From: Chloroflexota bacterium
GTDB taxonomy: Bacteria > Chloroflexota > Anaerolineae > Promineifilales > Promineifilaceae
DNA: 64,000 nucleotides
Assembly (NCBI GenBank): GCA_022616275.1
Contig: JAKEFB010000036.1
Span: 1 to 64,000 of the forward strand
Direction of reading: 5' to 3'
The position numbers and the translations under genes were made by a program. Positions 36,531 through 59,690 of this stretch are shown here, piece by piece. Under the pieces are notes generated by a model. That model was not told the origin of the DNA, ran no database searches, and saw only the letters and a program-made list of their open reading frames with translations. Positions within the stretch are counted from its first letter, which is position 1; every line of letters begins with the position of its first letter.

Positions 36531-36792
36531 TTAACCGGATTTTGTATACTTGTGAAGCTGCTCGATGGCTTGCTCTACGATGGTCTTGGTGACAAAAAGA
36601 GTACTCGTCTCGTGTAGAGAGGTGATGTGGTCCTCTGCCTCAACAAACGAAATGTGCCCTTCGCGGTAAGCTCTAACAACGATCCCCAGTGAGCCAACTG
36701 GCGTCAGTCTCAGGCGTTTGGCTGACTCTCGCGCAGAGGGCGTTAATCTCCGCTAAGTGGACAAGCGGGCCGGCGTCAGATACGGCGCTTAC
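36531..36792 (-). pseudogene. DUF3368 (VapC-like) toxin remnant
   Basis: On the minus strand the start region encodes 'AVSDAGPLVHLAEINAL', the conserved N-terminus of DUF3368 PIN-type toxins. The frame then runs into a stop. After a frame change the bases encode 'ESAKRLRLTPVGSLGIVV', 'RAYREGHISFVEAEDHIT' and the tail up to a TAA at 36531, which is the family's C-terminus. Roughly 90 middle residues, including acidic catalytic positions, are missing, and no ATG, GTG or TTG start remains. It overlaps the end of the antitoxin gene, as in intact modules. Confidence 0.7.
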
Positions 36793-37037
36793 CCCTCCAA
36801 TGCCCACGTAATGTCCTCCATCATCGCTTCGTGCTGGCGCTCCGCCAATTCAACCCAATCAATCCCTACCGCTTCTATAGCCTCCTCGCGGGAAATATCG
36901 TGGCGTAAGTAACGCCCCAAAATATGCTCTCGCCACAATTGCCGCAGACCGATTTGAAAGGCCATTGTCAGGACCTCGGCTTCTGATTTGTGAGTTTCGC
37001 GGGTAAGTGTTTCTAAATAGCCTAGTATACTTTCCAT
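36789..37037 (-). CDS. Antitoxin-like protein, partner of DUF3368 toxins
   Basis: This 82-residue protein has the C-terminal pattern 'LRHDISREEAIEAVGIDWVE' and 'EAMMEDITWALEG' typical of the small genes that precede DUF3368/VapC-like toxins. The N-terminus ('HKSEAEVLTMAFQIGLRQLW') is helical. The usual basic DNA-binding N-terminus is not obvious, so it may be shortened. The toxin gene that overlaps its end is destroyed, so this looks like an orphan antitoxin. Confidence 0.65.
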   Translation of the reverse strand: MESILGYLETLTRETHKSEAEVLTMAFQIGLRQLWREHILGRYLRHDISREEAIEAVGIDWVELAERQHEAMMEDITWALEG

Positions 37038-38381: not shown

Positions 38382-41300
38382 TCAGTCTTCGCCCTCTTCG
38401 GGGGTTGCGGGTGCATCCGGTCCGGCTACCACGCGCACTAACGCCTCATAAATCACGTCGTGCAGCGGACCGACGCGTTCGCCATCGCTACTCTTTCTAA
38501 AATCGTAGACGATGCGCTCGGCGAGCGGGTCGTCCAGCAGTTGCACCAATTCATCGGCCACGCGCTTACGCCCCGCGCGCCCCAGCTCTTCGGAGCGGCT
38601 GAAGCCCAGTTCGCCCAGGAGCAACGCCGCATGATAAGCCACAGTGATACTGGGGTTGCTGATGGCGGCAGTGAGCCGCTCCAGGCTGCCGGGGCCAAAA
38701 ACCTTGAACTTGCTCACCGCCTTGCGTGTCTCGCGGTAGACATCACCCACATCCTGGCAGGCGGCGAAAAAGACATCGGCCACCTGGTCGGTCAGTTGCT
38801 GCAGGTTGCCCAGGGCGCGGATAGCAAAGCGGCGAGTGTTGTAACTGTCGAGGTCGGTGGCAGCACGGGCAAAGAGGGCTACTACATCCGCCGGGTCGCG
38901 TGTGCGGGTGAAGGCGTGGTAGGTCAGCCGCTCACTCAGCTCGGCCAGGACAGTGACGAGGGCGCGGCGGGCGGGCCAGCCACTATATGGGTCGGTGAAC
39001 TTGTCATCGTTATCATCATCTTGATTTTCCATTCCAACCATTGCTTTTTCTAGGTCGTCCAGCATCCCCGCAATGAGCCGGGTGCGCTCCTCTGACGGCC
39101 GGGCTTCCACCCAGCCCACAATCTGCTTGACCGCCCACAGATGAGGGCTGACCCCGGGCCCGTCCTCATCGCCCCAAGAGTCAAGATCCGTGACAGCATC
39201 CAGCATCGCCTGCAGTGGAGCAGAATCAGATAGCAAGTCACTCAGGCGAGCCGGGCGGTCGTCGTCGCCGTGGTAAAGGCGGGCCAGGGCGCAGGCAGCA
39301 GTGCGGCGCATGGCCGGTTCCGGTGTGGTGAGTAGGGCTTCCACTTGGGCAATTGCCGCCGGCAAATGTGGCAGCGTTTCCAGCCAGGAGCGGCGGAGCT
39401 GCCACTCCTGCCTGGTGTTCTGCAGCAGTTTGTCCCATTCCTGGTCACCGCGCAGCCGGGCAGCGATCTCTTCAGACAAGCCAAGGGTATCGGGATGGAC
39501 CAGCGCGTCCAGGATGGCATCGGCATCTGGTGTTTCCTCAAGGACCGGGAGATTGGGCAGTTGTTTGACGGCTTCGGTAATGTCAGCGCGTCCGAAAAGG
39601 CTGCGTTCTGCTCCCTGGGCCTCCAGCCAGCGGAACAACGCCTCTTTGGAGACATCCGCATCCCGGAAGCCGCGCACGACGTGTAACACGGGCCCCAGCG
39701 AGCGCAGAGCCAGGCAGCGCGTTTCCTCGTCGGAGTCGGATTGAGTGGCCCGCAGCAAGGCTTGGGCCACCGGCCATAAGGTATGGCCGGTGGCCCATTG
39801 CAGCGCGTAGGCGGCGCTACGACGGATGTCTGTATCAGGATCGTCCAGGACAGCGGTCAGGGCGGTATGGATAGTAGTATCGGCCCGCTGGTTGGCGTTG
39901 GACCGCATAATCTCGCCAAGCGTATCGGTGACGGCGCGGCGCGCGGCGAGGGGTCGGGTGATATCGGTCAGCGTGGTACATAAGATGGACAGCACGTCCG
40001 TTGAAACTTGATAGACCTCGTTCAAGTCTTGACGCGCCACATCGCGCGCTACCTCATCTTCCTGCTCCAGTGCCTCCAGCCAGCGCGCCACCCAGAAAGG
40101 CTGTGTGTGATTTATGAAACCCAGCGCACTGGCTGAGACTGTCCCCAAATGCCAGTCCTTATTAGCGTTGGCATCTCGCCTGAAGTCCAGCAGTGTCTGT
40201 ACTGCCTCCGTGCTGCCATCGGTGGAGAGTTGGCTGCACACGTCACACAATTCTTGTGTACCTTTCACCCGCACTAGGTCGTTTGGCGACTGTACCGTTT
40301 CCAGCAAAACCGTCACCAGCAACGCCGGCAAATCGGTGGCGAGCAGAGCCAGGGATGCGGCCAGGCGGACCTCGGCTTCGTCAGTAATGAGCAAGTGAGC
40401 CAACGCAGGCACAGGCGCATTCGGGACCAGGCCATGGGCAGCCAGGGTTTGGCGCAGCCACACGGCCAGAGGCAGGTCGTTCTCGGGCGTACTCAGGGCG
40501 CGCAGCCAGGGGTAAAGTCCAGCCGGGGGCTGCTTGACCTGCAATAACAGCCCCAAAACAGCCAGCCCTTCTTCGACCTCCGCCGGCTGATCCAGATAGC
40601 GCGCCGCCAGCGTCTCGGCCATCGCAGCTTGCAGCGCTTCGTGGTCGTAAAGCAGGGCTAACGCCATCAAACGGCGTTCTCGGACGGCGGACTTAAATGC
40701 TTGGGTGAGCGCCGTGACAACTAGAGATTGCTGGTCTTGTTGGTTTGCTAGCCTCGACAGTGTAGCGAACCAAACCTTGTCATCAGCACCTTCCAGGGTG
40801 GCTTGCAAGGTCATGGCGGAAACCGGCGTGATGGCTTCTTGGCGGATGGCAGCAGCAAGTATGGCTGTCTTGACGCGTAGCAGTGGCAGTGTGGCCGATT
40901 GCGCCAGGAGCGCGTCTATCTGTTGGCTAATTTCCTGCTGGACAACGGCGATGTGCTCTGTCTGCGGCGCGCCTTGGACTGTATCGCCTTCCAGTTCGGT
41001 CAAGCGGGCGGCGGCGTGCCGGAAGGTGGGGATCAGGAGGTGGCCGAACTCGGCTTTCGCCAGTAGCCAGCGGATGCAGTCCTCGCTCTCCGGGTAGGTA
41101 CGAAAACTCCCCCAAAACTCAGTGGGATGCTCCCGGTCAACGTATGGCTCTGCCGGCTGAGCCACCCACAGTTGCGTCAGGGCGTCGTCCCAGCCTTGCA
41201 GCCACAGTCCGCTGAGCAGCCGTACCAGGGGGGCATCACCGCACAACACGGCCCAACTCGCGCCGGTGGCTTTCAACTCATGTTGGACGGCTGTGACGAG

Positions 41301-44300
41301 CACAGCGTGCGGCAAAGCCAGCAGATCGTCCTGACTGGCCGGCAGCAATGCCGCCAGATGGCGCACCTCGGTGTCCTCGTCCACCAGCCAGACCAGGGAC
41401 TGGGCAAAGGTATCGCTTTCCTGCCAGGAAATCTTGCGCAGCAGTTCCAGACTGATGGTACGCAGGGCCACATCACGTCGGCCCTCGTCCAGCAACGCCA
41501 GGAGTGGCCGGTCGCCTTCGATTTCTGTGACCCCGTCTAGTTTCTCACGCACTGCCTCGGCCAGCGGGTGATCGGGGCGGCGCAGGACCGCCCAGCACCA
41601 GGCAAGCAGGTCGGAGGTGAGACCGGTGGCGAAGAGTATATCCAGGGCCGGTGTAGCCTGGTCGGCAGGCGCGTCCAGCAGGCCCAGCAGCAGCTCAACC
41701 TGGGCGTCAGTGAACTCGACGTGCTCGCGGACAGGCGGTTTTGTCAACGCCTGCAAGGCCAAGCGGCGGCGTTTGACATCTATACCTTCTATATCCGCAC
41801 AGACAATGGATACCATTTCTGCTTGGAGCCGGTATTCTTCACTATCAGAAGAAATTGATTGCCAGGGTTCAGTTATGGGAAACGAAAGAAATAGAACTGC
41901 ATCTTGATACTGCTGTATATCGGTAGTTGATCGAAGCATGTCCAGCAAGGTGTGGCCAATGGCGGCCTGAATCGTTTCCACGCTGGCGCGTAATGCTTCA
42001 TCATCCGGTAGAGGGTTCAAATTCGCCAGGCGTCCAGCAGCAGTCACAAATATTGGCACAAGCGTATGGCCAGCCGAGATATCCTTCAATAGATAAGAAC
42101 CGGCGCGCTGAAACACATTAGACCAATCGAGATCTGAAACAGCACGCTCCTGTTCGCGTACTACGTTCTGAAACCGGATAAGTGCTTCACCTATTAGTAG
42201 AGTGTCCACCTCTATTGGTTCACGAGATGACGTAAAGCCCGTCCTAAATGACAAGAAAAGACGGAGTGTGGCCGCCACATCCCTGGTTTCATCACTACCT
42301 TGAAACCATCCTGCAACCGCCCGTATTAATTGCTCGGTTGCCGCTTCTAGGTCGCTGTCCTTAGGCGAAGTTTGCCAAATCGTCCGTAACGATTCTGAAA
42401 TAGCTTCCCAAAACTCGGTCTCACGTCGGTAATTTGGAGTGTCGCTAAACCGTTGTGAGAATTGATTTGCTAAACCCACGGCCCGATAGATTGACAGGGA
42501 GTGTAGTTCACGGGTCGCGTTATCACAAGTCGCCTGAGGAATTCCAAGGCTTGACGGCAAATACGCACGCCAGTCATAGCACCACATCACACCCAACAGC
42601 CGGGCCAGGGCAGCATCCTCCCGCACCATGTCCCAATCGGCCGGCGTGGGACGCATCCCGTTACTGTTGGCCGGCAGGCGCGCCTGTACCGCGCGCAGCA
42701 GTTCTTGACCGCGGGGCAGCACGCCCAACTCGGGGCAGGCAGCCAAGGCGTGGGCAACGGCCGGCGTGCGCGCTTTGAGCCAGTCTACCACCTCTAAAGC
42801 GCAAGCGAGGGCGCTGCGGTTGGGGCAGCCCATCAATGTATTGGCCAGCGCGGCCTCCACTGCCACATCTCCTTGGTCGTTGCATAGCATCAGTAGGGCA
42901 TCTTTAACCTGGCTTTGCAGCAGCCGGTAGCGTCCAGCGCGGCGGCGGTCGCAGTAGAGCGCCAGCAGCCGTCCGCCAATCTCCTGGCGCAGCACAGAGG
43001 CTACGTTGACGCTGTCGCCAACGCAGGCAGCGGCGAAGAGCAGGTCGCGGTGCAGTACCGGCTCGTAAAGGCTGCCTGCATCCAAAATGGTCCGCAGCAG
43101 GTCGTCAGCGTCAGCGTAGAACTGTTTGCTCAACGAGCCGACCGCCAGCAAGATGGGTTCGCGCCAGCGGGGTAGATGCAGCCGCTTAAAGATTTCCGAG
43201 CGTGCCTGGGCTGAACTACTGACCAAGTGGCGGGCAGTGAAATATTCCTCAAAGGTCAAGTGCATAAAACCGTACAGCCCCTGGCCACGCTCCAAGAACA
43301 AGCCGCTGTTCTGGTGCACCGCCTCCAAGAATTGTTGCACCGCCTCGCGCGTCTCCAACAACGGCTGCTCCGGGTCTTTTTCGCCCCGCTCAATGGCCAG
43401 AATACGACCCAGGAAGCGTTCAGTCTCTCCTTTGCTGAGAAAGCCGCTGGAGTAGTTTTCGTGGATGTAGAACGCCAGCGGGCCCAGCAGACTCATCGCC
43501 TTCTCCTCGTCAATCGCCGCGCCTTTGGTGCCACGCTCCCGGTGCCAGTCGCGCAGCAGGGTGACGGTGGCCGTCTCGTAAAGTTCCACCCGGCGATGGG
43601 GCAGGTGGGACTCGCCGCGGTGGATGAGGGCCAGGATGCGCAGAAGCAGGGGGTTCCTGGCCATTTCGAGAACGCCGGGCAAGGTATCCACTGCTTGTAG
43701 GATGCCACCGATCTCACGGCGGGCGCGCTGTTCCACTTGGACTGGGTCGGGCGATTTCGTAAGGTGCCGTTCCACCGCGGGACACCATTTCTCTAAGAAC
43801 AGTTTGATGTCGTCCAGGCTCATCCGGCGGATAGTGTAATGCTCAAACTCGCCGGGCACACCGGCAAAGTGGTAGCCAGCGATGCGGCAGGTGACTACAA
43901 AATGGTTGCCTATGTGAGCGTAGCGCACCTCGTTCAGTAGATCCCAGGCCAGTTGTATAGCCCGATCATGTCGCCGCTGCCTGCGCCGTTGTTTGATTTG
44001 CTTCTCCCATTCCTGGCGCACATCTTCCGGTACGCTTTTGTCCCACGGGATGACCATACTCTCCGCCTCATCATTCCCACTGTTGGCTTCCGGCTTTGCC
44101 TCGACACGCGTCTGAATGAATGTCAGTGAGCGCGTCAGCCAGCCTGGCAAGCCCGTCTCACGAAAGACGTCGGCGAACCGGCCGATAGCAGCGGCAATGT
44201 TGTGCCGGTCAGTGTAGTCTCTAATCTCGTCAAGGCCATCCAGTAGCACCATACAGCGGCCTTCCTCCAATAGCCGTTGGAGGAGCGGCCCCAACTTGTC

Positions 44301-45986
44301 GGCATGGGGTACTTGCAGCCCGGCAAAATAGCGCGGTAGATAATCCAACAGCGCCAGGTCTGGTTCCTTCTGGCGCGCCTCGGCGTAGTGGGAGATCCGT
44401 AGCAAAATGGGCAAGCGTACCGGCCCGAGGTCAGGCAGCCGCCAGGCGTTCTTGTCATCCCACCACGCCTGCGGCTGAAAGATGCGCTCAGGTTCGGCCA
44501 GGATGGCAAGGGCAAAGCGTAGCGTCAGGTAGCGTAGCAGCGTAGTCTTGCCCGAGCCTGGTTCGCCCAGGATGACGACCTGCCGGTGGCGCTGAACGAT
44601 GTTGGCGAGTTCCTCGCGTGGGCTGGAGATCTCCAGTGCTTGCTCAAGTGGGTGTGCCTGACTAGCCCAGATTCGATATTGTTTCTCGCGCTCCTTGGGA
44701 TCTTCTACGCGCTCCAGGCGTTTATTGATCTCGTCCAGTTCTTCCTGCATCACCCGACGGTCCACGTCGGGGCGGTCGTGGGCGGCCTGCAAACCCACAT
44801 AGATTTCATCCAACGGCAACACCACTTGCACTTTGGTTTGTTTGATGCCGCCCGGCTCCAGGTGAGTGTTGTTTCGCACCAGAGCGTGGAGATAGCCTTC
44901 GAGTACCATCCGTTCACGCTCAAAGTGCGGGGGAGGTGGAACTTTCAAAGGCGCTGACGATGAAGTGCCTGGTTCAGGTTTTTTTTTACCCAGCGCTTTA
45001 GGCAGGGTATCCAACGTGAATTTGCCACCCGGATGTGAATCTATATCTTCTATCCATTCGTTCCGCTGTTCACTCCAACGCCGCAAGTAAACTGTGCCAT
45101 GTGCGGCGTCGAAATCAAGATGGACGAAGTTATAGGCATTGGTATAACGTGAATCTTCGGCCACACGGCGCTTGTAACTAGCCCCGGCGGGGATGATGAC
45201 ACAATCGCCTGTTGTGCCCTTTACCACGTGAACCTGAGGATTATGTACATGACCGTGCAGGATGAAGTGGCACGCGCGGCCTAGCCTGGCTTCGGTGCGA
45301 TTGCGATCAAACTCGCTTAGCCAGGCAAACGGGTGATGGACAACAGCAATGCGTAGTTCGGCATCGGCGATCTTCGCCAAGGCATCGTGGATCTGCGGTT
45401 CACCGATCAAGGTGTAACCGTAGTCATTGACCTCACCGTTAGCATCCTTGTTACGAGCGTTCATCCAGGCGGAGTTGAGGCCCAGTAGTCCGACACGCTT
45501 CCCACCTGCTTCCAGTTGGAGAATGGAAGCGTAATCAGGGGAAGGTTGATTTGTGTATCCGGCGACAAACTCACGATATGCCTCAAACGGATCTAACACC
45601 CGTTTAAGCTTTCTCGCATCAATTAGCCAAGTTTGCACCAGTGTGTCGGAATCAAGCGGCTTTTGCAGGGCTGGCGGCAGCATCTCATAGATCGTTTCCC
45701 GGCTTAAATCGTGGTTGCCCGGTATACAGAAAAGCCGGTTTGGCGGCAAGCTCAGAGCTTCCAACACCGGTTCAAATAGATATTCTCGAGCAGCTTCATA
45801 CTCAGCAGGCTGGCCGCTGAAGGCAATATCACCACTAAAGACGACAAAGTCAACCTGTGTCAGAGCTAGATTGATGGTTGCCCGGTCACGAATATCTTTA
45901 ATGAGAGCATCGCGCACCACCTTCCGGTCGAAGTCTGCCCCTTTTTGGTGCCAATCCGAGAGATGAAGCCAGGTTAATCCTGTCAT
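38382..45986 (-). CDS. Calcineurin-like phosphoesterase / NACHT NTPase / HEAT-repeat protein
   Basis: This is a 2534-residue STAND-type protein. Residues 1-320 are a metallophosphoesterase with all metal motifs: D11-x-H13, G-D53, G-N91-H92-D, H217-H218 and G245-H-x-H248. A linker with a coiled-coil-like stretch (about 405-445) follows. The NACHT domain has Walker A 'GEPGSGKTTLL' (474-484) and Walker B 'MVLLDGLDEI' (579-588), then a winged-helix region and 'YGFMHLTFEEYFTARHLV'. Residues of about 980-2530 are HEAT/ARM-like helical repeats, presumably the sensor. Bacterial NACHT proteins include antiphage defence proteins. The effector here would be a nuclease or phosphodiesterase activated by oligomerisation. 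GGCCGG-type words are sparse compared with neighbours, suggesting transfer. GGAGG precedes the ATG. Confidence 0.9.
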   Translation of the reverse strand: MTGLTWLHLSDWHQKGADFDRKVVRDALIKDIRDRATINLALTQVDFVVFSGDIAFSGQPAEYEAAREYLFEPVLEALSLPPNRLFCIPGNHDLSRETIYEMLPPALQKPLDSDTLVQTWLIDARKLKRVLDPFEAYREFVAGYTNQPSPDYASILQLEAGGKRVGLLGLNSAWMNARNKDANGEVNDYGYTLIGEPQIHDALAKIADAELRIAVVHHPFAWLSEFDRNRTEARLGRACHFILHGHVHNPQVHVVKGTTGDCVIIPAGASYKRRVAEDSRYTNAYNFVHLDFDAAHGTVYLRRWSEQRNEWIEDIDSHPGGKFTLDTLPKALGKKKPEPGTSSSAPLKVPPPPHFERERMVLEGYLHALVRNNTHLEPGGIKQTKVQVVLPLDEIYVGLQAAHDRPDVDRRVMQEELDEINKRLERVEDPKEREKQYRIWASQAHPLEQALEISSPREELANIVQRHRQVVILGEPGSGKTTLLRYLTLRFALAILAEPERIFQPQAWWDDKNAWRLPDLGPVRLPILLRISHYAEARQKEPDLALLDYLPRYFAGLQVPHADKLGPLLQRLLEEGRCMVLLDGLDEIRDYTDRHNIAAAIGRFADVFRETGLPGWLTRSLTFIQTRVEAKPEANSGNDEAESMVIPWDKSVPEDVRQEWEKQIKQRRRQRRHDRAIQLAWDLLNEVRYAHIGNHFVVTCRIAGYHFAGVPGEFEHYTIRRMSLDDIKLFLEKWCPAVERHLTKSPDPVQVEQRARREIGGILQAVDTLPGVLEMARNPLLLRILALIHRGESHLPHRRVELYETATVTLLRDWHRERGTKGAAIDEEKAMSLLGPLAFYIHENYSSGFLSKGETERFLGRILAIERGEKDPEQPLLETREAVQQFLEAVHQNSGLFLERGQGLYGFMHLTFEEYFTARHLVSSSAQARSEIFKRLHLPRWREPILLAVGSLSKQFYADADDLLRTILDAGSLYEPVLHRDLLFAAACVGDSVNVASVLRQEIGGRLLALYCDRRRAGRYRLLQSQVKDALLMLCNDQGDVAVEAALANTLMGCPNRSALACALEVVDWLKARTPAVAHALAACPELGVLPRGQELLRAVQARLPANSNGMRPTPADWDMVREDAALARLLGVMWCYDWRAYLPSSLGIPQATCDNATRELHSLSIYRAVGLANQFSQRFSDTPNYRRETEFWEAISESLRTIWQTSPKDSDLEAATEQLIRAVAGWFQGSDETRDVAATLRLFLSFRTGFTSSREPIEVDTLLIGEALIRFQNVVREQERAVSDLDWSNVFQRAGSYLLKDISAGHTLVPIFVTAAGRLANLNPLPDDEALRASVETIQAAIGHTLLDMLRSTTDIQQYQDAVLFLSFPITEPWQSISSDSEEYRLQAEMVSIVCADIEGIDVKRRRLALQALTKPPVREHVEFTDAQVELLLGLLDAPADQATPALDILFATGLTSDLLAWCWAVLRRPDHPLAEAVREKLDGVTEIEGDRPLLALLDEGRRDVALRTISLELLRKISWQESDTFAQSLVWLVDEDTEVRHLAALLPASQDDLLALPHAVLVTAVQHELKATGASWAVLCGDAPLVRLLSGLWLQGWDDALTQLWVAQPAEPYVDREHPTEFWGSFRTYPESEDCIRWLLAKAEFGHLLIPTFRHAAARLTELEGDTVQGAPQTEHIAVVQQEISQQIDALLAQSATLPLLRVKTAILAAAIRQEAITPVSAMTLQATLEGADDKVWFATLSRLANQQDQQSLVVTALTQAFKSAVRERRLMALALLYDHEALQAAMAETLAARYLDQPAEVEEGLAVLGLLLQVKQPPAGLYPWLRALSTPENDLPLAVWLRQTLAAHGLVPNAPVPALAHLLITDEAEVRLAASLALLATDLPALLVTVLLETVQSPNDLVRVKGTQELCDVCSQLSTDGSTEAVQTLLDFRRDANANKDWHLGTVSASALGFINHTQPFWVARWLEALEQEDEVARDVARQDLNEVYQVSTDVLSILCTTLTDITRPLAARRAVTDTLGEIMRSNANQRADTTIHTALTAVLDDPDTDIRRSAAYALQWATGHTLWPVAQALLRATQSDSDEETRCLALRSLGPVLHVVRGFRDADVSKEALFRWLEAQGAERSLFGRADITEAVKQLPNLPVLEETPDADAILDALVHPDTLGLSEEIAARLRGDQEWDKLLQNTRQEWQLRRSWLETLPHLPAAIAQVEALLTTPEPAMRRTAACALARLYHGDDDRPARLSDLLSDSAPLQAMLDAVTDLDSWGDEDGPGVSPHLWAVKQIVGWVEARPSEERTRLIAGMLDDLEKAMVGMENQDDDNDDKFTDPYSGWPARRALVTVLAELSERLTYHAFTRTRDPADVVALFARAATDLDSYNTRRFAIRALGNLQQLTDQVADVFFAACQDVGDVYRETRKAVSKFKVFGPGSLERLTAAISNPSITVAYHAALLLGELGFSRSEELGRAGRKRVADELVQLLDDPLAERIVYDFRKSSDGERVGPLHDVIYEALVRVVAGPDAPATPEEGED

Positions 45987-46124: not shown

Positions 46125-46352
46125 TCACCCCCAGGTCTGTTCTGCTTCCCAAATGTCGAATTCTCCTGGTTGCACCGGGTATCGTGCATACCCGGCTGCG
46201 TGCTGCCGTTCCATTTGTTTGATCTCTTATTGTTCAAGGGCAAGTTTTAAGGCTTCCCGGATAAACGCCGAACGGGTCGTGTTCAAATCCTGGCTTACCT
46301 GGTCCACTTTGGCCAGTAACGATTCGTCTATCGTCACCTGAATCGTCTTCAT
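46125..46352 (-). pseudogene. RHH (MazE-type) antitoxin interrupted by a stop codon
   Basis: The ATG at 46352 begins 'MKTIQVTIDESLLAKVDQ', a ribbon-helix-helix antitoxin. An in-frame TAA at 46227-46229 stops translation after 41 residues. Beyond it the same frame continues for 34 codons with the usual C-terminal part ('MERQHAAGYARYPVQPGEFD', then 'IWEAEQTWG') and ends at TGA 46125. The TAA probably replaced a Tyr codon. The truncated product retains the DNA-binding part but not the toxin-binding tail. An operator-like inverted repeat (GTGGATT/AATCCAC) lies at about 46374-46400. Confidence 0.7.
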
Positions 46353-46354
46353 CC

Positions 46355-46726
46355 TCTTCACCTCCACTATGTGGATTGCTCTCCACACAGTAATCCACCT
46401 CCCTTGACAAGTCAAGCCGACTTTTTGATCTCCTTTTTTGAGAAATTCGTGCAATTCGTGTAACTTGTCCTGAGCAATGTCGAAGGATTCGTGTCGAAAA
46501 AAAGTTACCTCTCGTAGCGGGTATTCGAAGCAATTAACAATTCCCCAATTGGTTTAGAAGGCTCTTAGCGCCTTCTGAGCGGTGTCACCAGTTTTGACTG
46601 GGGTTGATAGCTACGCTGAACCCCACAGAGTGCATTTTAGGCCCCTTAGAGGCTCGCAGAATCGCTTCGAATTCCCTAGCCCGCTGCCCTTTTTGGATCT
46701 GATGTTCTACGGGTAAAATTAGCCCC
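46355..46726. other. Intergenic region between antitoxin remnant and recD2
   Basis: Besides the GTGGATT/AATCCAC inverted repeat near the antitoxin start, I see only low-GC DNA, a CTGAGCAATGTCGAAGGA motif at about 46471-46488, and a short imperfect hairpin (GAAGGCTCTTAGCGCCTTC, 46558-46576). No further gene is evident. Confidence 0.4.
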
Positions 46727-49700
46727 ATGACCGGCCGATCCCCAGAGCAAATCAGCGGCTCCGTCGAGCGCATCACCTTCTATAACGAAGAGAACGGCTA
46801 CACCGTCCTGCGGCTGAAGCCCGACTCGCGTTCCATGCTGCCCTACAAGTACCCCGGCCGCGGCCAGGACCTTGTCACCGTCGTCGGCAACCTGCCCGAA
46901 GTCACGCCCGGCGAGTGGCTGAAGCTGACCGGCCGCTGGGACACCCACAGCAAGCACGGCCGCCAGTTCCAGGCCGACACCTGCGAACAAAGCCTGCCGG
47001 CCACCGCCGAAGGCATCAAGCGCTACCTCGGCTCCGGCCTCATTCGCGGCATCGGCCCGGTCATGGCCGAGCGGATCGTCAACAAGTTTGGCGACCAGGC
47101 GCTGGACGTCATTGAGCTGGAGCCCGGCCGGCTGCGCCAGGTGCTGGGCATCGGCCCCAAGCGGATCAAAGGCATCGTCAAGGCCTGGGACGAGCAAAGG
47201 GCCATCCGGGACGTCATGGTCTTCCTCCAGTCCCATGCCGTCTCCACCAGCCTGGCCATCAAGATTTACAAGAAGTACGGCGACGAGTCGCTGGCCGTCG
47301 TCCGCCAGACGCCCTACAAGTTGGTCAACGACATTCGTGGCATCGGCTTCAAAACGGCCGACAAGATTGCCAAAGCCCTGGGGCTGGCCCACGACGACCC
47401 CGGCCGCATTGAAGCCGGCATCGCCTACACCCTCAACCGCATGGCCGAAGAGGGCCACGTCTACGTCCCCCAGCAAGAGCTGGAGCCGGAAGCGGCCCAG
47501 ATTTTGAACCTGGACCCGGCCAAAATCACGGCCGTCATCGAGCAACTGGAAAGCGACGAGCTGATCCGGCGCGAGACGTTGACCTACAAAGTCGAGCCAG
47601 CCCCGGCCGCTCCACCGGCCCCGGCCGCCGTCAAAGAAGAAAAAGCCGTCTACCTGACCCCCCTCTACTACTCCGAAGTTGGCGTCACCAACCGCCTCCG
47701 CCGCATCATTGAGCACCCCACCAGCCGCCTCGCCCCCCTCCGCTCAACCCTCACCAGTAGCCAGCTACTTTCCAAAATCCAAAATCTAAAATCTAAAATC
47801 GAATTCCCCCTAACTCCCCAACAACTCCAGGCCATTCACACCGCCGTCAGCCACAAAGTCACCATCCTCACCGGTGGCCCCGGCACTGGAAAATGTATCC
47901 ACGGAGATGCACTCGTATGGCTGGAGCAAGGTTGGGTTCCGATCAAGGAGATAAAACCAACAAAGGACATGGTTGCCGATACCGCCATCCCTATCTCCGT
48001 AAAGGTTCATACTCGCAACGGTCTCAAGGAAGCAACGCACTTTTACTATGGCGGCGAACAGGAAACGGTACGAATTAGAACTTCTGAAAGATATGAAATT
48101 GAAGGCACGCTCAACCACAGAATCATTGTAGCCACAGAAAACGGCCCTGCCTGGAAACGGCTCGACGAAATTCGTGATGGCGACTATGTTGCTATTTACC
48201 GAAAATATATTCCTGAGGAGGACGTTTTTGATACCTTTGCCTACTTCCTTGGTTTATTTGTTGGCGATGGACATGCTAATAAGAGCGGTGATCTGCCAGT
48301 GACAGGTGTAATAATCACAACGGCCGATCAAGAAATTTGGGACTTTTTAGAAAAGGAAATGCCACAATTAAACTTTACCGTCAAAAATCATGGATATAGC
48401 GGCAAAGCGCGCATGTATTACATTGGACGGTACCGGTGGCACGGTAGAGGTGGCGTCGCGGCGGTGATGCAGGAGTGGGGCTGCAAATTGGCAAAGTCTA
48501 GAGAAAAGAATGTGCCTGTTAAAATCCTTCAAGGCACATTGTCACAAAAACGCTCTTTCCTTAAGGGGTTGCTTGATGCAGACGGAACAATAGATAAACG
48601 TGACGGTTCAGTGGAATTAGGTATGTCTAATTTACCACTACTCCAAAGTGTACAAGTAATACTGCTAGAATTTGGCATCATATCTGTTATCAGGCAAAAG
48701 CCAGATGTAGATTCCTGGCGCTTATCTATCAGGGGAGACGATGCACTCAGATTCTACGAGCGCATTGGATTCAATATTGAACGGAAGCAAATTGGCAGGC
48801 AGTTGCTTAGCAATCGATCAAATGCGAATCGCGACATTGTGCCCTGCCTGGGAACTGGTCTGCTTCGCCGGTATATTGCTCAGACAGGTAAGCACAACCG
48901 TGAATGGTGGTGGAAATGGAAACGAGAAGCGAAAGGGGAACGACGACCACATAGAGACCGCCTCTTAACTCTGATAGATCAATATCAAGTTAACAGTCAG
49001 GAAGAATCCATTATTCGGAGTCTTTCCAATGAGGATATCTTTTGGTCTCAAGTGACTGGATCTATACGTTCAAGAGCAGAAGTTTATGATTTACATGTAC
49101 CGGATGGCAATGAATTCATTGCTAACGGGTTTGTTAATCATAATACCACTACTTTACGCACACTTCTTGATCTATTGGATCGCCACCACCACACCTACGC
49201 CCTGGCCTCGCCCACCGGCCGGGCCGCCAAACGATTATCAGAAGCCACCGGCCGGCCGGCCAGGACCATTCATCGCCTGCTGGAGTTCAATCCCGGCCAG
49301 GGTTTCGGCCGCCACGAAAACAACCCCATCGAGGCCGACCTGGTGGTCATTGACGAGACCTCCATGCTCGACCTGGTCCTGGCCAACAACCTGCTCAAAG
49401 CCGTCAGCCCCGACAGCCACCTGCTGCTGGTCGGCGACGTAGATCAGTTGCCCTCGGTTGGGGCCGGAGACGTGCTCCGCGACCTGATTGACTCCGGCGT
49501 GGCCGCCGTCATCCGCCTGGAGACGATCTTCCGCCAGGCGGCCGGCAGCCTGATCATCCGCAACGCCCACCGCATCAACCAGGGCCAGATGCCGGAGACG
49601 CCCAAGGGGGCCACCGACTTCTTCCTCTTCGTCAAGGACGACCCCGACGAAGCGGCCGAATTGCTGGTGGACATCGTCAAGAGCCGCGTCCCGGCTAAAT

Positions 49701-50245
49701 TTGGCCTCCACCCCTTCGACGACGTCCAGGTGCTCAGCCCGATGTACGCCGGCGGCACCGGCGTTTCCAACCTCAACCAGTTGCTGCAGCAGGCCCTTAA
49801 CCCGCCAGGCAACAAACCGGAAAGACGGCTCGGCGGCCGGGTCTTTCGCCTGGGCGACAAAGTCATGCAGACGGTCAACAACTACGACAAGAACGTCTAC
49901 AACGGCGACATCGGCCGGATCACGGCGATGGACGTGGTCCAGCAGACGATGACGGTCAGCATTGACGGCGCGCCCGTCGTTTACGACTTCCTGGAAGCCG
50001 ACGAGCTGGTCCACGCCTTTAGCATCAGCGTCCACAAGAGTCAGGGCGCCGAGTACCCCTGTGTGGTCATGCCCATCCTGACCCAGCATTACATGATGTT
50101 ACAGCGGAATTTGCTCTACACGGCCGTCACCCGGGCCAAAAAGCTGGTCATCCTCGTCGGCACGCGCAAAGCCATCCAGATTGCCATCCGCAACAACCGC
50201 GTCACCGAGCGCCACACGGCCCTGGACTGGCGCTTGAAGCGGTAA
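46727..50245 (+). CDS. recD2: RecD2 helicase precursor with intein
   Basis: This is a 1172-residue precursor; removal of the intein (residues 390-806) leaves a 755-residue RecD2-type 5'-3' DNA helicase. The N-terminal OB-like part ('SGSVERITFYNEENGYTVLR') and helix-hairpin-helix repeats ('YLGSGLIRGIGPVMAERIV') are typical of RecD2. Walker A is GGPGTGK|TTT, split exactly by the intein. Walker B is 'DLVVIDETSMLDLVL', followed by 'HLLLVGDVDQLPSVGAGDVL' and the C-terminal 'SISVHKSQGAEYPCVV' and 'NLLYTAVTRAKKLVILVG'. The helicase cannot bind ATP until the intein splices. It acts in DNA repair and has no RecBC partners here. Confidence 0.93.
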   Translation: MTGRSPEQISGSVERITFYNEENGYTVLRLKPDSRSMLPYKYPGRGQDLVTVVGNLPEVTPGEWLKLTGRWDTHSKHGRQFQADTCEQSLPATAEGIKRYLGSGLIRGIGPVMAERIVNKFGDQALDVIELEPGRLRQVLGIGPKRIKGIVKAWDEQRAIRDVMVFLQSHAVSTSLAIKIYKKYGDESLAVVRQTPYKLVNDIRGIGFKTADKIAKALGLAHDDPGRIEAGIAYTLNRMAEEGHVYVPQQELEPEAAQILNLDPAKITAVIEQLESDELIRRETLTYKVEPAPAAPPAPAAVKEEKAVYLTPLYYSEVGVTNRLRRIIEHPTSRLAPLRSTLTSSQLLSKIQNLKSKIEFPLTPQQLQAIHTAVSHKVTILTGGPGTGKCIHGDALVWLEQGWVPIKEIKPTKDMVADTAIPISVKVHTRNGLKEATHFYYGGEQETVRIRTSERYEIEGTLNHRIIVATENGPAWKRLDEIRDGDYVAIYRKYIPEEDVFDTFAYFLGLFVGDGHANKSGDLPVTGVIITTADQEIWDFLEKEMPQLNFTVKNHGYSGKARMYYIGRYRWHGRGGVAAVMQEWGCKLAKSREKNVPVKILQGTLSQKRSFLKGLLDADGTIDKRDGSVELGMSNLPLLQSVQVILLEFGIISVIRQKPDVDSWRLSIRGDDALRFYERIGFNIERKQIGRQLLSNRSNANRDIVPCLGTGLLRRYIAQTGKHNREWWWKWKREAKGERRPHRDRLLTLIDQYQVNSQEESIIRSLSNEDIFWSQVTGSIRSRAEVYDLHVPDGNEFIANGFVNHNTTTLRTLLDLLDRHHHTYALASPTGRAAKRLSEATGRPARTIHRLLEFNPGQGFGRHENNPIEADLVVIDETSMLDLVLANNLLKAVSPDSHLLLVGDVDQLPSVGAGDVLRDLIDSGVAAVIRLETIFRQAAGSLIIRNAHRINQGQMPETPKGATDFFLFVKDDPDEAAELLVDIVKSRVPAKFGLHPFDDVQVLSPMYAGGTGVSNLNQLLQQALNPPGNKPERRLGGRVFRLGDKVMQTVNNYDKNVYNGDIGRITAMDVVQQTMTVSIDGAPVVYDFLEADELVHAFSISVHKSQGAEYPCVVMPILTQHYMMLQRNLLYTAVTRAKKLVILVGTRKAIQIAIRNNRVTERHTALDWRLKR
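47765..47801 (+). repeat. CAAAATCTAAAATC words inside recD2
   Basis: The AAATCC/AAATCT words otherwise found in intergenic DNA (for example about 53650-53720) occur in frame here and encode 'SKIQNLKSKIE' in a linker. They probably represent expansion or insertion of intergenic words into a coding sequence. Confidence 0.5.
47894..49144 (+). mobile_element. Intein with LAGLIDADG homing endonuclease
   Basis: This 417-residue in-frame insertion starts with Cys ('CIHGDALVWLEQGWVPIKEI') and ends 'FIANGFVNHN' before Thr, the usual splice junctions (Cys1, His-Asn at the end, Thr +1). The middle contains two LAGLIDADG-type motifs ('LGLFVGDGHANKSG' and 'GLLDADGTIDKRDG'). GC content is clearly lower than in the flanking exteins, which suggests relatively recent arrival. 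It splits Walker A of the helicase right after the Lys. Confidence 0.93.
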
Positions 50246-56448: not shown

Positions 56449-56486
56449 GTAATTGGGTAATTGGTAATTACCAATTACCCAATTAC
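56449..56486. terminator. 38-bp perfect palindrome between convergent genes
   Basis: The left arm (GTAATTGGGTAATTGGTAA, 56449-56467) is exactly complementary to the right arm (56468-56486). CTTTTG follows on the plus strand and TACTAATACGC on the other. It covers the stop codon of the minus-strand regulator gene and could stop transcription in both directions. Confidence 0.65.
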
Positions 56487-59400
56487 CTTTTGTACTACCT
56501 CTTCCAACGTCCCCACCTCTTTCCGAGCCGCCTCAAAAGCCACTTCACCCATTTGTTGGCGCAGCCCGGCCGCCAGGTTCGCCGCCGCATCCCGTGTTTT
56601 CTGGGGGCTGGAGGGACGGCTGGCAATCACGGCCAGGAGGGCCGCCGCCTGATCCTGCTGGCCGGCCGCCATTAGCAGCGCGGCTACCTCCACCAGAATT
56701 TCCATTATCACCGGCGTCGCCTCAATGGCCACTGCCGTTGCCAGCGCTTCCCGGTAAGCCACGCTCGCTTCCACGTAAGCGCCCATTGCCCGGCTGGTGT
56801 TGCCCAGGTGGTTGAGCGCGTAGGCAATGCCCGCCCGGTAGCCAATCTCCCGGCAGGCGGCCAGGCTCTGCCGGTACAGGCTTTCAGCCTGGCTGTACGC
56901 CCGGCGGCCGAAAGCCACGTTGCCCAGGTTAGTGAGGGCGTAGGCAAAACCCTTCCGATCGCCAATCTCCTGAAAAACAGCCAGACACTCCGTCAGCTCC
57001 GCTTCGGCCGTGTCGTACTCCCCCACCAGGAAACTGACGTAACCCAGATTGTTCAGCGAATAGGCTACCCCCCGCCGGTCACCGATGTCGTGCTTGATGG
57101 CCACGCTCTTCTGGTACAATTGGCGGGCCTCGGCGTATTCGCCCAGCGCGTCGGCAATGCTGCCCAGGTTGTTCAGGCAGACCGCCACCCCCCGCCGGTC
57201 GCCAATCTCCCGCCGTTGGGCCAGGCTTTCCCGGTAAAAGAGCCGCGCCTCCTGGTACTGGCCCTGGGCAAAAGCCACGTTGCCCAGCCGCAGGAGAACG
57301 TTGCCGGTACCTCGGCTACTGGCCACGCTCCGGCCGCACTCGCGCCACAAGATCAGGCTTTCCTCTTGCCGGCGCCGGGCTTCGCCGTAATCCCCACCCG
57401 CTTCGGCTACCACGCCCAAAATACTGGTGACGCTCGCCACTTCCGGCCAGGCGGCCACCGTCCGCAACAATTCCAGGCTGCGTTCCAGCGCCGCCCGGCC
57501 TTCGTCTAGCCGCGACAACCGCACCAGCAGCCGCCCCTGGCGCGACAGGGCCCGGCCCAGCGCCAGTTGGTTATCTTCCTGGCCTTCCAACAGGGCTACC
57601 ACCTGGCCAAACGCTTCCACCCCTTCTTGAAACCAGCTTCGTATCTCGTAAAAACGGAACAGGCTCTCCAGGCAGCGGTCTACAACGTCAACCCGGCCGG
57701 CGGCAATCGCCCAACGCCAGGCCTGGCGCACGTTTTCAATCTCTTCGCCAATCTCGGCCAGCGCCCTGGCCTGCTCCTCGCCCAGGATTGCCTCTTCCCG
57801 CTCCTGCAAGAAACGGGCGTAATAGTCGCTGTGCTGCTCCCGGACCGCCTCCTGGGCGGCCGGCGGTAGCTCGGCCTGGAACTTTTCGGTGGCGTACTGG
57901 CGCAGCACCTCGGGCGCCAGGTAACGGCCGTCCGGCCCCCGCTGCAACAAGGACTTATCGGCCAGGGCCATGAGCAGCGGCGGGGAAGCGCCGGTCACGG
58001 CCACGGCCGCCGCCACCACAAAGCCACCGCGAAACACAGACAACTGCCGGAAAGCGGCCCGCTCCTCCTCCGCCAACAACTCCCAGGAGTGCTCAAAGAC
58101 GGCCCGCAGGCTGCGATGCCGCTCCGGCAGGTTGCGCAGGGAAGTAGCCAGAAAATCCAGGCTCTGCTCAATCTGGCCGGCAATCTCCTGACAGGATAGC
58201 ACCCGCACCCAGGTCGAGGCCAGCTCTACCCCCAGGGGCATGCCGCCGACCAGCCGGCAAATCTGGGCCACGTATGGCTTTTCCTCCTCGGATAGCAAGA
58301 AATTGCGCTGCACCTGGCTGGCCCGCTGGACAAACAACTGCACGGCGCTGCTCTTCTCCACGTCCCTGATCTCCCCATTGGGACAGCTCAGGCCGGCAAT
58401 TTCCAGTAACCACTCTTCCATCAAGTTAAGCCGTTCCTGCGAAGTGACCAGCAGTTTCACCCCCGGCGCGCTCTGCAAAATGTTGGCCAGCAGGTCCACG
58501 CCCGCCAGCAAATGCTCAAAATTGTCCAGCACCAGCAGCAGTTCCTTCTGGCGCAGATAGTCCAACAGTTGGGCCTTCGGCTCCGGGCCGTCGGCGTAAA
58601 AGGAGAAGCGCAGAGCGTCGGCTACGTGTGTTGCCAGGTAATCGGCCGCATTGGCTGGTCCCAAAGGCACAAAACACACCCCGTGGGCGAACCGGCCGGC
58701 CTGGCGAATGGCCGCCTCGATGGCCAGCCGCGTTTTGCCGATGCCGCCTGGCCCTACCAGCGTCAGCAACCGGCACTCAGGCCGGCCAAGCAACTGGTTA
58801 ATTTCGGCCAGTTCCATTTCCCGGCCGACAAAGGGCGTCGTCTGAGCGGGGATGGTATAGCGGATTTGTGGCGGGCCGGCCGCTGCCTTCTCCTGTCCCT
58901 TTTCGCCGCCGGGGACCACTTCGCCGGCCAGAATACGCTCATACAGGGCCACCGTTTCTGGTTGGGGTGTTGCTCCCATCTCTTCCCGGAGGATGCGCGC
59001 GCATTCCTGGTACTGGCGCAACGCCGCCGCCCGCTGGTTGCTACGCGCGTACCATTCCATCAGCGCCCGGTGGGCCGCCTCGTCCAGCCGGTCCAACGCC
59101 AGCCAGCGCCGGGTGGCCTCGATGGCTTCGTCGCTACGGCCCTGCTGGCCGTAATAGCGGGCTACCTTCTGCAACGCCCCGGCCAGCGCCCGGCGCAGCC
59201 CCTCGGCCTGGAACAACTGCCAGTCGTCAAAGTCAGGGCTATCGGCCAGCGTAAAGCCTTCCAGGAACTCCCCCCGGACCAGGCCAACGGCCTCGTTGAG
59301 CGCCGGCAGGCAATGGCGGCAGGCGGCCATTGCCTCTCCTTCGTGCCGGTCACAAGGAGCCAGCAGCGCCCGGAAGTGGTCCACATCCACCCACAACCGC

Positions 59401-59690
59401 TCGCCGGCCTCCAGGTTGTCGTTCAGCCCGACCACAGCCCGGTCGGCCGCCAGCCATTGCTTGCCGATAGCCTTATTCAAGGCCGCCAGCGTACGTCGCA
59501 GCGCCGTATAGGCCCGCACCTGGTCCGATTCCGGCCACAGCAACGCAGCCACGGTGGTTCGCGGCTGCGCCTGGCCCGTTACCGCCAGGTAAGCCAGCAG
59601 CGCAATCGCCTTCCTTGTATCCACCTCAATGGGCACGCCGTCTACCTCGATGAGCGGCGGGCCAAGCAAACGGACGGTCAGTGTGGCCAA
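56475..59690 (-). CDS. AfsR/SARP-like regulator: BTAD, NTPase and TPR domains
   Basis: This is a 1071-residue STAND regulator. The N-terminal winged helix and BTAD domain (about residues 1-255) are SARP-type ('LLGPPLIEVDGVPIEVDTRK', 'DEAAHRALMEWYARSNQRAA'). The NTPase domain has Walker A 'LVGPGGIGKTRLAIEA' (about 313) and Walker B 'LLLVLDNFEHLL'. The C-terminal third is TPR repeats of the type 'GNVAFAQGQYQEARLFYRES'. Such proteins activate transcription by binding direct repeats spaced by one helix turn. Four such repeats lie upstream of its start, next to a -10 box facing the peptidase genes. Confidence 0.9.
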   Translation of the reverse strand: MATLTVRLLGPPLIEVDGVPIEVDTRKAIALLAYLAVTGQAQPRTTVAALLWPESDQVRAYTALRRTLAALNKAIGKQWLAADRAVVGLNDNLEAGERLWVDVDHFRALLAPCDRHEGEAMAACRHCLPALNEAVGLVRGEFLEGFTLADSPDFDDWQLFQAEGLRRALAGALQKVARYYGQQGRSDEAIEATRRWLALDRLDEAAHRALMEWYARSNQRAAALRQYQECARILREEMGATPQPETVALYERILAGEVVPGGEKGQEKAAAGPPQIRYTIPAQTTPFVGREMELAEINQLLGRPECRLLTLVGPGGIGKTRLAIEAAIRQAGRFAHGVCFVPLGPANAADYLATHVADALRFSFYADGPEPKAQLLDYLRQKELLLVLDNFEHLLAGVDLLANILQSAPGVKLLVTSQERLNLMEEWLLEIAGLSCPNGEIRDVEKSSAVQLFVQRASQVQRNFLLSEEEKPYVAQICRLVGGMPLGVELASTWVRVLSCQEIAGQIEQSLDFLATSLRNLPERHRSLRAVFEHSWELLAEEERAAFRQLSVFRGGFVVAAAVAVTGASPPLLMALADKSLLQRGPDGRYLAPEVLRQYATEKFQAELPPAAQEAVREQHSDYYARFLQEREEAILGEEQARALAEIGEEIENVRQAWRWAIAAGRVDVVDRCLESLFRFYEIRSWFQEGVEAFGQVVALLEGQEDNQLALGRALSRQGRLLVRLSRLDEGRAALERSLELLRTVAAWPEVASVTSILGVVAEAGGDYGEARRRQEESLILWRECGRSVASSRGTGNVLLRLGNVAFAQGQYQEARLFYRESLAQRREIGDRRGVAVCLNNLGSIADALGEYAEARQLYQKSVAIKHDIGDRRGVAYSLNNLGYVSFLVGEYDTAEAELTECLAVFQEIGDRKGFAYALTNLGNVAFGRRAYSQAESLYRQSLAACREIGYRAGIAYALNHLGNTSRAMGAYVEASVAYREALATAVAIEATPVIMEILVEVAALLMAAGQQDQAAALLAVIASRPSSPQKTRDAAANLAAGLRQQMGEVAFEAARKEVGTLEEVVQKVIG

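Follow-up and report, generated by a model that had tools for sequence, protein, structure and literature searches.

A giant phosphoesterase-NACHT-HEAT protein from a Chloroflexota bacterium as a candidate single-gene defence system

DS-8, a defence system found with DefensePredictor (NCBIfam NF053861), consists of a single metallophosphatase-NACHT protein in which mutation of either active site abolishes phage defence (PMC13092281). Bacterial STAND proteins of the bNACHT and Avs types combine an N-terminal effector, a central NTPase and a C-terminal sensor (PMC12169576), and calcineurin domains were described on STAND proteins (PMC8195603) and in GTPase systems (PMC7159879) in 2020-2021. Here we describe a gene of comparable layout at positions 38382..45986, on the minus strand, of a 64,000-nucleotide window (the whole stretch of DNA analysed: contig JAKEFB010000036.1 of assembly GCA_022616275.1, a Chloroflexota bacterium), which encodes a giant protein of 2534 residues with an N-terminal calcineurin-like phosphoesterase, a NACHT module and C-terminal HEAT-type repeats. 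We propose, with a probability of about 0.72, that it is an NLR-like single-protein anti-phage (or anti-plasmid) switch of the DS-8 layout, with an effector of the phosphodiesterase type. This defence reading is based on the relatives, namely the DS-8 precedent, the exchange of partner domains by the phosphoesterase, and a full-length relative inside an Hma-type locus, which together support the NACHT switch with a phosphoesterase in the effector position that an earlier sequence-only reading of this DNA had proposed; the setting of the window copy itself is ordinary.

The DS-8 model matches residues 8-309 of the giant protein, and both have a metallophosphatase ahead of a NACHT module in one chain. 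The match reaches 117.8 bits against a cut-off of 790, however, so that the giant protein is not a DS-8 member; it is about 2.5 times as long as the 994-position model and differs further by a long HEAT region, a C-terminal module and an insert in its NACHT module. No hit in 99 related genomes, or in 20 records containing relatives, passed the DS-8 cut-off. Searching defence-system models, as had been suggested with the sequence-only reading, also returned a match of 131 bits in two stretches to the PADLOC phage-defence candidate PDC-S60, for which no cut-off is given; the best stretch lies in the phosphoesterase part and spans just positions 4-262 of 1027. The DS-9A model (NCBIfam NF053862) contains a homologous phosphoesterase (54.6 bits for the giant protein, cut-off 420), but DS-9 comprises two genes and includes a HAD phosphatase, and the available part of its report (PMC13092281) mentions no NACHT fusion. 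The proteins bNACHT25 and bNACHT32 carry a PD-(D/E)XK nuclease effector, whereas the giant protein has a phosphoesterase and about 1475 C-terminal residues; a PADLOC search at E values up to 1 listed 12 families, no Avs-named model among them, the library's coverage of Avs types being unchecked. The GASH/GTPase conflict systems with calcineurin-type effectors (PMC7159879) share the homologous phosphoesterase domain but distribute their functions over separate genes in a GTPase-centred operon. Finally, the sensor of diversity-generating retroelement (DGR) 7 in Thiohalocapsa PB-PSB1 (PMC10907252, 2024) joins a metallophosphodiesterase to a NACHT in one protein, but also has a vWA domain and a DGR-diversified lectin domain, and is likened here by its description, not by sequence. 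Given DS-8 (PMC13092281) and the calcineurin-STAND proteins (PMC8195603), the claim that this layout lies outside the well-studied architectures is not supported in that form. The present analysis adds the size of the protein, the insert in its NACHT module, the scaffold of HEAT repeats plus C-terminal module, a relative embedded in an Hma locus and the breadth of partner domains; no published phosphoesterase-NACHT-HEAT giant was recognised in a literature search within whose reach most subscription papers did not fall.

As claimed from the letters alone, the gene is one uninterrupted frame, and Pfam domain positions give the order effector, NTPase, C-terminal repeats. Residues 1-334 (44985..45986) form the putative effector. 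The Pfam Metallophos model (PF00149) scores 40.5 bits across residues 7-250 against a cut-off of 21.5, and an AlphaFold model of residues 1-334 has a mean predicted local distance difference test score (pLDDT) of 92.6; its nearest folds are 9a6c_B, followed by purple acid phosphatases, SMPDL3A and Rv0805. All eight residues that we take, from the superfamily, to be metal ligands are present (D11, H13, D53, N91, H92, H217, H246 and H248). In an alignment of 47 rows, comprising the window protein and 46 of the 90 loci fetched, seven of these eight do not vary, and at least 90% of rows keep H248. The motifs D11-x-H13 (45948..45956), GNHD at residues 90-93 (45708..45719) and HH at 217-218 (45333..45338) are unchanged in 47 of 47 rows, as are G245 and H246 of the GHxH motif at 245-248 (45243..45254). 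With a score above the cut-off and complete metal motifs, the domain is a calcineurin-like phosphoesterase, and the complete metal site seen by the sequence-only reading is confirmed.

A conserved linker (residues 335-455, 44622..44984; 68% identity with the full-length relative, L102) leads into the NACHT NTPase at residues 456-690 (43917..44621), with Walker A GEPGSGKT at 474-481 (catalytic-position lysine K480) and Walker B LLDGLDE at 581-587. The C-terminal part of the module, residues 691-1060 (42807..43916), holds the motifs NPLLL and FMHLTFEEY (FMHLTF at 907) within blocks conserved in an 18-row alignment. In this alignment the NACHT motifs of the giant protein line up with those of 17 relatives, and only the window protein and L102 have an insert, some 80 residues long, that follows Walker B (about 609-690). 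The Pfam NACHT model scores 21.7 bits, under its cut-off of 26.7, possibly because of this insert, and P-loop models at about residues 460-500 are all below their cut-offs, while the relatives L055, L114 and L208 do exceed the NACHT cut-off. A profile built from the 18 rows matches chains of NLRP3 (E 3e-12) and NLRC4 (E 1e-9), both of which are outscored by Midasin chains over a short stretch only. Judged by motif and alignment, the giant protein carries the Walker A, Walker B DGLDE and FxHLTF-type motifs of NACHT/STAND NTPases in diverged form, so that the Walker pair reported earlier is complete though diverged.

Residues 1061-2335 (38982..42806) constitute the putative sensor. HEAT_2 is matched at 36.9 bits in five stretches, the best at 2015-2097, and the HEAT signal is statistical in only part of the region. 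A low-confidence model of residues 1340-2534 (mean pLDDT 53, from an alignment of two rows) is 71% helix, with no strand of three or more residues. Of the roughly 1500 residues of helical repeats originally proposed, HEAT-type repeats are therefore detected and their full extent is likely, the details being unproven. Among 397 genomes searched with the HEAT region, 11 matched, including its own, none along the full region. The chain ends in a conserved module (residues 2336-2534, 38385..38981) common to other NACHT-HEAT proteins, similar ends being present in L061, L082, L087 and others. In L082 a related NACHT, HEAT and C-terminal module is preceded by a trypsin-like domain, and further NACHT relatives of the scaffold bear EAD7 or FGE. 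L061, from another member of the family (genome G002), combines NACHT with the C-terminal module; a contig end truncates its start and leaves its N-terminal domain unseen.

The full-length relative, L102, is a frame of 2522 residues in Anaerolineales bacterium UBA6092, 58% identical across residues 1-2529. Identity is 63% in the phosphoesterase, 77% in the NACHT, 76% in the following module and 72% in the last 200 residues, and 43-54% in the repeats, with a minimum of 30% at 1201-1300. Non-synonymous divergence (dN) rises from 0.13-0.15 in the NACHT module to 0.36-0.51 in the repeats, which change 2.4-3.9 times faster; the proportion of non-synonymous differences (pN) is below that of synonymous ones (pS) in every region and, since synonymous sites are near saturation, no dN/dS ratio is claimed. 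At L102 the genes follow one another on the plus strand as HmaA, HmaB, two small open reading frames (ORFs), the giant gene and HmaC, with bit scores of 673, 434 and 387 for HmaA, HmaB and HmaC. Hma has been named a putative defence system present in 26 phyla (PMC8565338), and genes embedded in Hma (Hma-embedded candidates) or in other systems (phage-defence candidates) have been mined as defence candidates, several of the former being antiviral (PMC12988326). L102 resembles such candidates in lying between HmaB and HmaC, but among the neighbours scanned the window copy is neither inside nor near an Hma locus. The second small ORF at L102 is an 8xMP membrane protein, 18 bases after which the giant gene begins. 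Profiles built from this neighbour and two Nostocales neighbours matched those three alone among 2,555 nearby ORFs at 79 loci; no general tie to a small membrane protein was found. The same contig holds a second phosphoesterase gene, a 1479-codon open frame about 12 kb upstream of the giant gene (L207, from 11995, plus strand).

Relatives of the phosphoesterase are patchily distributed. Close relatives (E < 1e-49) occurred at seven places in 6 of 298 sampled genomes of the class, its own included, with weak matches in 11 more, and no match was found in the 16 same-family relatives among these 298. One other family member, picked up by the DS-8 model, has a phosphoesterase with nSTAND6 (TPR signals under cut-off). 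Whole-protein scans of genome contigs and viral contigs returned no relative, whereas alignment-based scans of both did: for genome contigs we considered the best 80 of 468 confirmed matches, representing 79 distinct loci and no census, and on viral contigs 11 of 594 pattern matches were phosphoesterase relatives, at 21-32% identity. At 1e-5, a search of 50,697 phage records gave no match. Among plasmids, 27 of 72,556 records matched at 1e-10, of which 20 were typed conjugative; of 10 plasmid loci opened, 4 carry the phosphoesterase relative in a GASH/GTPase operon with the GASH gene downstream of it, and one such operon ends beside rdrB of RADAR. Confinement of the relatives to stable core genes with housekeeping neighbours, a pattern that the sequence-only reading had named as fatal to it, was not found, yet the window copy does have neighbours of this type.

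Across bacteria, archaea and plasmids these phosphoesterases occur with varied partners: NACHT plus FGE (L055, L171, L180), NACHT plus a winged helix-turn-helix domain (L114), nSTAND6 (L059), an ORC/CDC6-like domain (L058), NB-ARC plus TPR (L104, L112, Methanothrix), SIR2-like domains (L107, L111, Nostocales) and TIR (L108, an archaeon), while in L054 and L056 the phosphoesterase is C-terminal. Among the 70 complete frames at the 79 loci, 15 match the NACHT profile, 12 of which are themselves rows of that profile; they are 1063-1400 residues long, except for L102. A phosphoesterase-NACHT-HEAT protein of 1789 residues (L208), 42% identical across residues 1-605, is encoded in the genome of L119, Siccirubricoccus sp. 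G192. In a phosphoesterase tree, the window domain falls in a 20-row clade (Shimodaira-Hasegawa-like approximate likelihood ratio test 99) mixing NACHT, NB-ARC, SIR2-like and TIR partners; this quickly built tree has long end branches and leaves 17 of its 44 inner branches open, and 19 of its 47 rows carry no partner label. On this tree the phosphoesterase has changed partner. Separately, L208 and L209 form a duplicated segment on one Siccirubricoccus contig, each with a phosphoesterase-NACHT-HEAT gene, one frame being intact and the other shifting frame near its start. The phosphoesterase-NACHT-FGE gene L180 lies on an IMG/VR contig classed as viral and is perhaps a prophage-carried defence gene. 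The DS-8 model exceeds 100 bits at 10, 6 and 9 places in the single genomes behind L161, L167 and L169 (two titled Aminicenantes, one Acidobacteriota), which we read as an NLR-like expansion of phosphoesterase effectors.

The composition of the giant gene sets it apart from its surroundings. Its codon-usage distance from 26 pooled native genes is 0.163, whereas 40 overlapping native blocks as long as the gene lie at 0.039-0.097, and its GC content at third codon positions is 0.655 versus 0.778 in native genes. Counting both strands, the gene contains 12 GGCCGG words where the rest of the window predicts 53; all 83 other 7.6-kb window steps hold at least 33, and 88 steps of that length taken from four further stretches of the genome hold at least 22 apiece. 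The depletion noted from the sequence thus holds relative to the neighbours; about 9 would be expected from the gene's own dinucleotides, hence the gene lacks a word over-used by the host and is not depleted in absolute terms. A restriction-avoidance reading of this count was dropped. Outside the gene, the window carries the word at 7.0 per kb, and four stretches of the same genome (L204, L205, L206 and L067) carry it at 5.4-9.3 per kb; in window positions 1-38381 its density is about four times the dinucleotide prediction. Taken together, composition suggests that the giant gene was acquired, as an addition between ordinary genes.

Its flanks are an EamA transporter and RecD2, and in the neighbours scanned (26.8 to 64.0 kb) it stands alone, as had been claimed. 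Both flanking genes are present in eight relatives, but in every one of these EamA and RecD2 match on separate contigs, which leaves no empty-site comparison. RecD2 was present at 1e-60 in 23 of 31 genomes searched, its own included. In the window an intein bearing a LAGLIDADG domain splits the RecD2 gene (46727-50245, plus strand) directly behind Walker A; RecD2 frames in 22 relatives measure 377-806 residues versus 1172 here, and the intein looks absent from them. Of the degraded toxin-antitoxin locus proposed beside the gene, a ribbon-helix-helix (CopG-type) antitoxin remnant was recovered upstream, on the minus strand at 46227..46454 (PF01402, 33.2 bits, cut-off 20.5), with no toxin recognised; this remnant is probably not part of the system. 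By eye, two small ORFs at 36673-37037 (minus strand) resemble an antitoxin and the beginning of a toxin of the PIN type, neither of them recognised by Pfam. Further away, a BTAD-TPR regulator with an NTPase part (56475-59690, minus strand; NB-ARC just below cut-off) has a codon distance of 0.176, unlike its neighbours.

Beyond the domain layout, our working model is inferred from published accounts of DS-8 and bNACHT. The HEAT region would bind or monitor a sign of infection, possibly indirectly, sensing by bNACHT25 having been reported to proceed via a host chaperone (PMC12169576). The NACHT module would then exchange nucleotide and assemble, and assembly would activate the metal-dependent phosphoesterase, which would hydrolyse a phosphodiester or nucleotide, a small nucleotide being a likelier substrate than duplex DNA, and so halt the infected cell. 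Several observations weigh against this proposal. The scanned neighbours are ordinary genes with no recognisable defence island, and a search of the same genome for HmaB, the single Hma part sought, gave weak matches only (best 45.6 bits). The Hma embedding is known from one locus of one assembly, whose HmaA also matches the DrmD and BrxH models. Four of the 26 native genes, three short and one of 1072 codons, taken singly lie at codon distances of 0.164-0.197, and the faster change in the repeats could reflect relaxed constraint. The six partner labels require five changes over the whole tree, leaving out rows labelled 'other' and unlabelled rows; five is the minimum for six labels and therefore does not demonstrate repeated swapping. 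To these is added the large shortfall against the DS-8 cut-off.

The same defence role could be served by a phosphoesterase acting as an Mre11/SbcD-like nuclease on phage or host DNA or RNA instead of as a nucleotide phosphodiesterase, which we regard as possible but not probable. A role in development or stress, as a STAND signalling protein whose phosphoesterase tunes a second messenger, would suit the ordinary genes around the window copy and the reported over-representation of related NTP-dependent and TRADD-N systems in bacteria of multicellular habit, systems which their own authors nevertheless read as conflict systems; the patchy distribution, the unusual composition of the gene, the Hma-type setting of L102 and the DS-8 data (PMC13092281) make it unlikely. 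The phosphoesterase might also be a brake that removes a signal nucleotide, with the protein working alongside another, unlinked effector. Its fold relation to Rv0805 and to SMPDL3A, which cleaves cGAMP (PMC13092281), would fit such a brake, but DS-8 protection requires its phosphoesterase (PMC13092281) and the domain is N-terminal on several scaffolds, so we consider this quite improbable. Least credible of all is a decaying, functionless insertion: the gene does adjoin the antitoxin remnant, but a 7.6-kb open frame with every catalytic residue intact and pN below pS in all regions against L102 speaks against it.

Returning to the single-protein switch, a bolder and distinctly doubtful extension is that the giant protein typifies a prokaryotic NLR-like family in which an exchangeable phosphoesterase, having either an essential nucleotide or a new signal as its undescribed substrate, is coupled to a HEAT solenoid of more than 1200 residues that would read a large phage assembly, the family moving between lone sites and Hma loci and perhaps cooperating there with the helicase, methylase and ATPase of Hma. 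Little is understood of phosphoesterase effectors in bacterial immunity, the target being unknown for those of DS-8 and DS-9 (PMC13092281). The giant gene and L102 form a natural pair, with effector and switch conserved and repeats diverged, suited to domain-swap tests of the repeat reading and of the enzyme's target. Relatives of this enzyme occur on many different scaffolds, in bacteria and archaea and on plasmids, which suggests a single effector serving many sensors.
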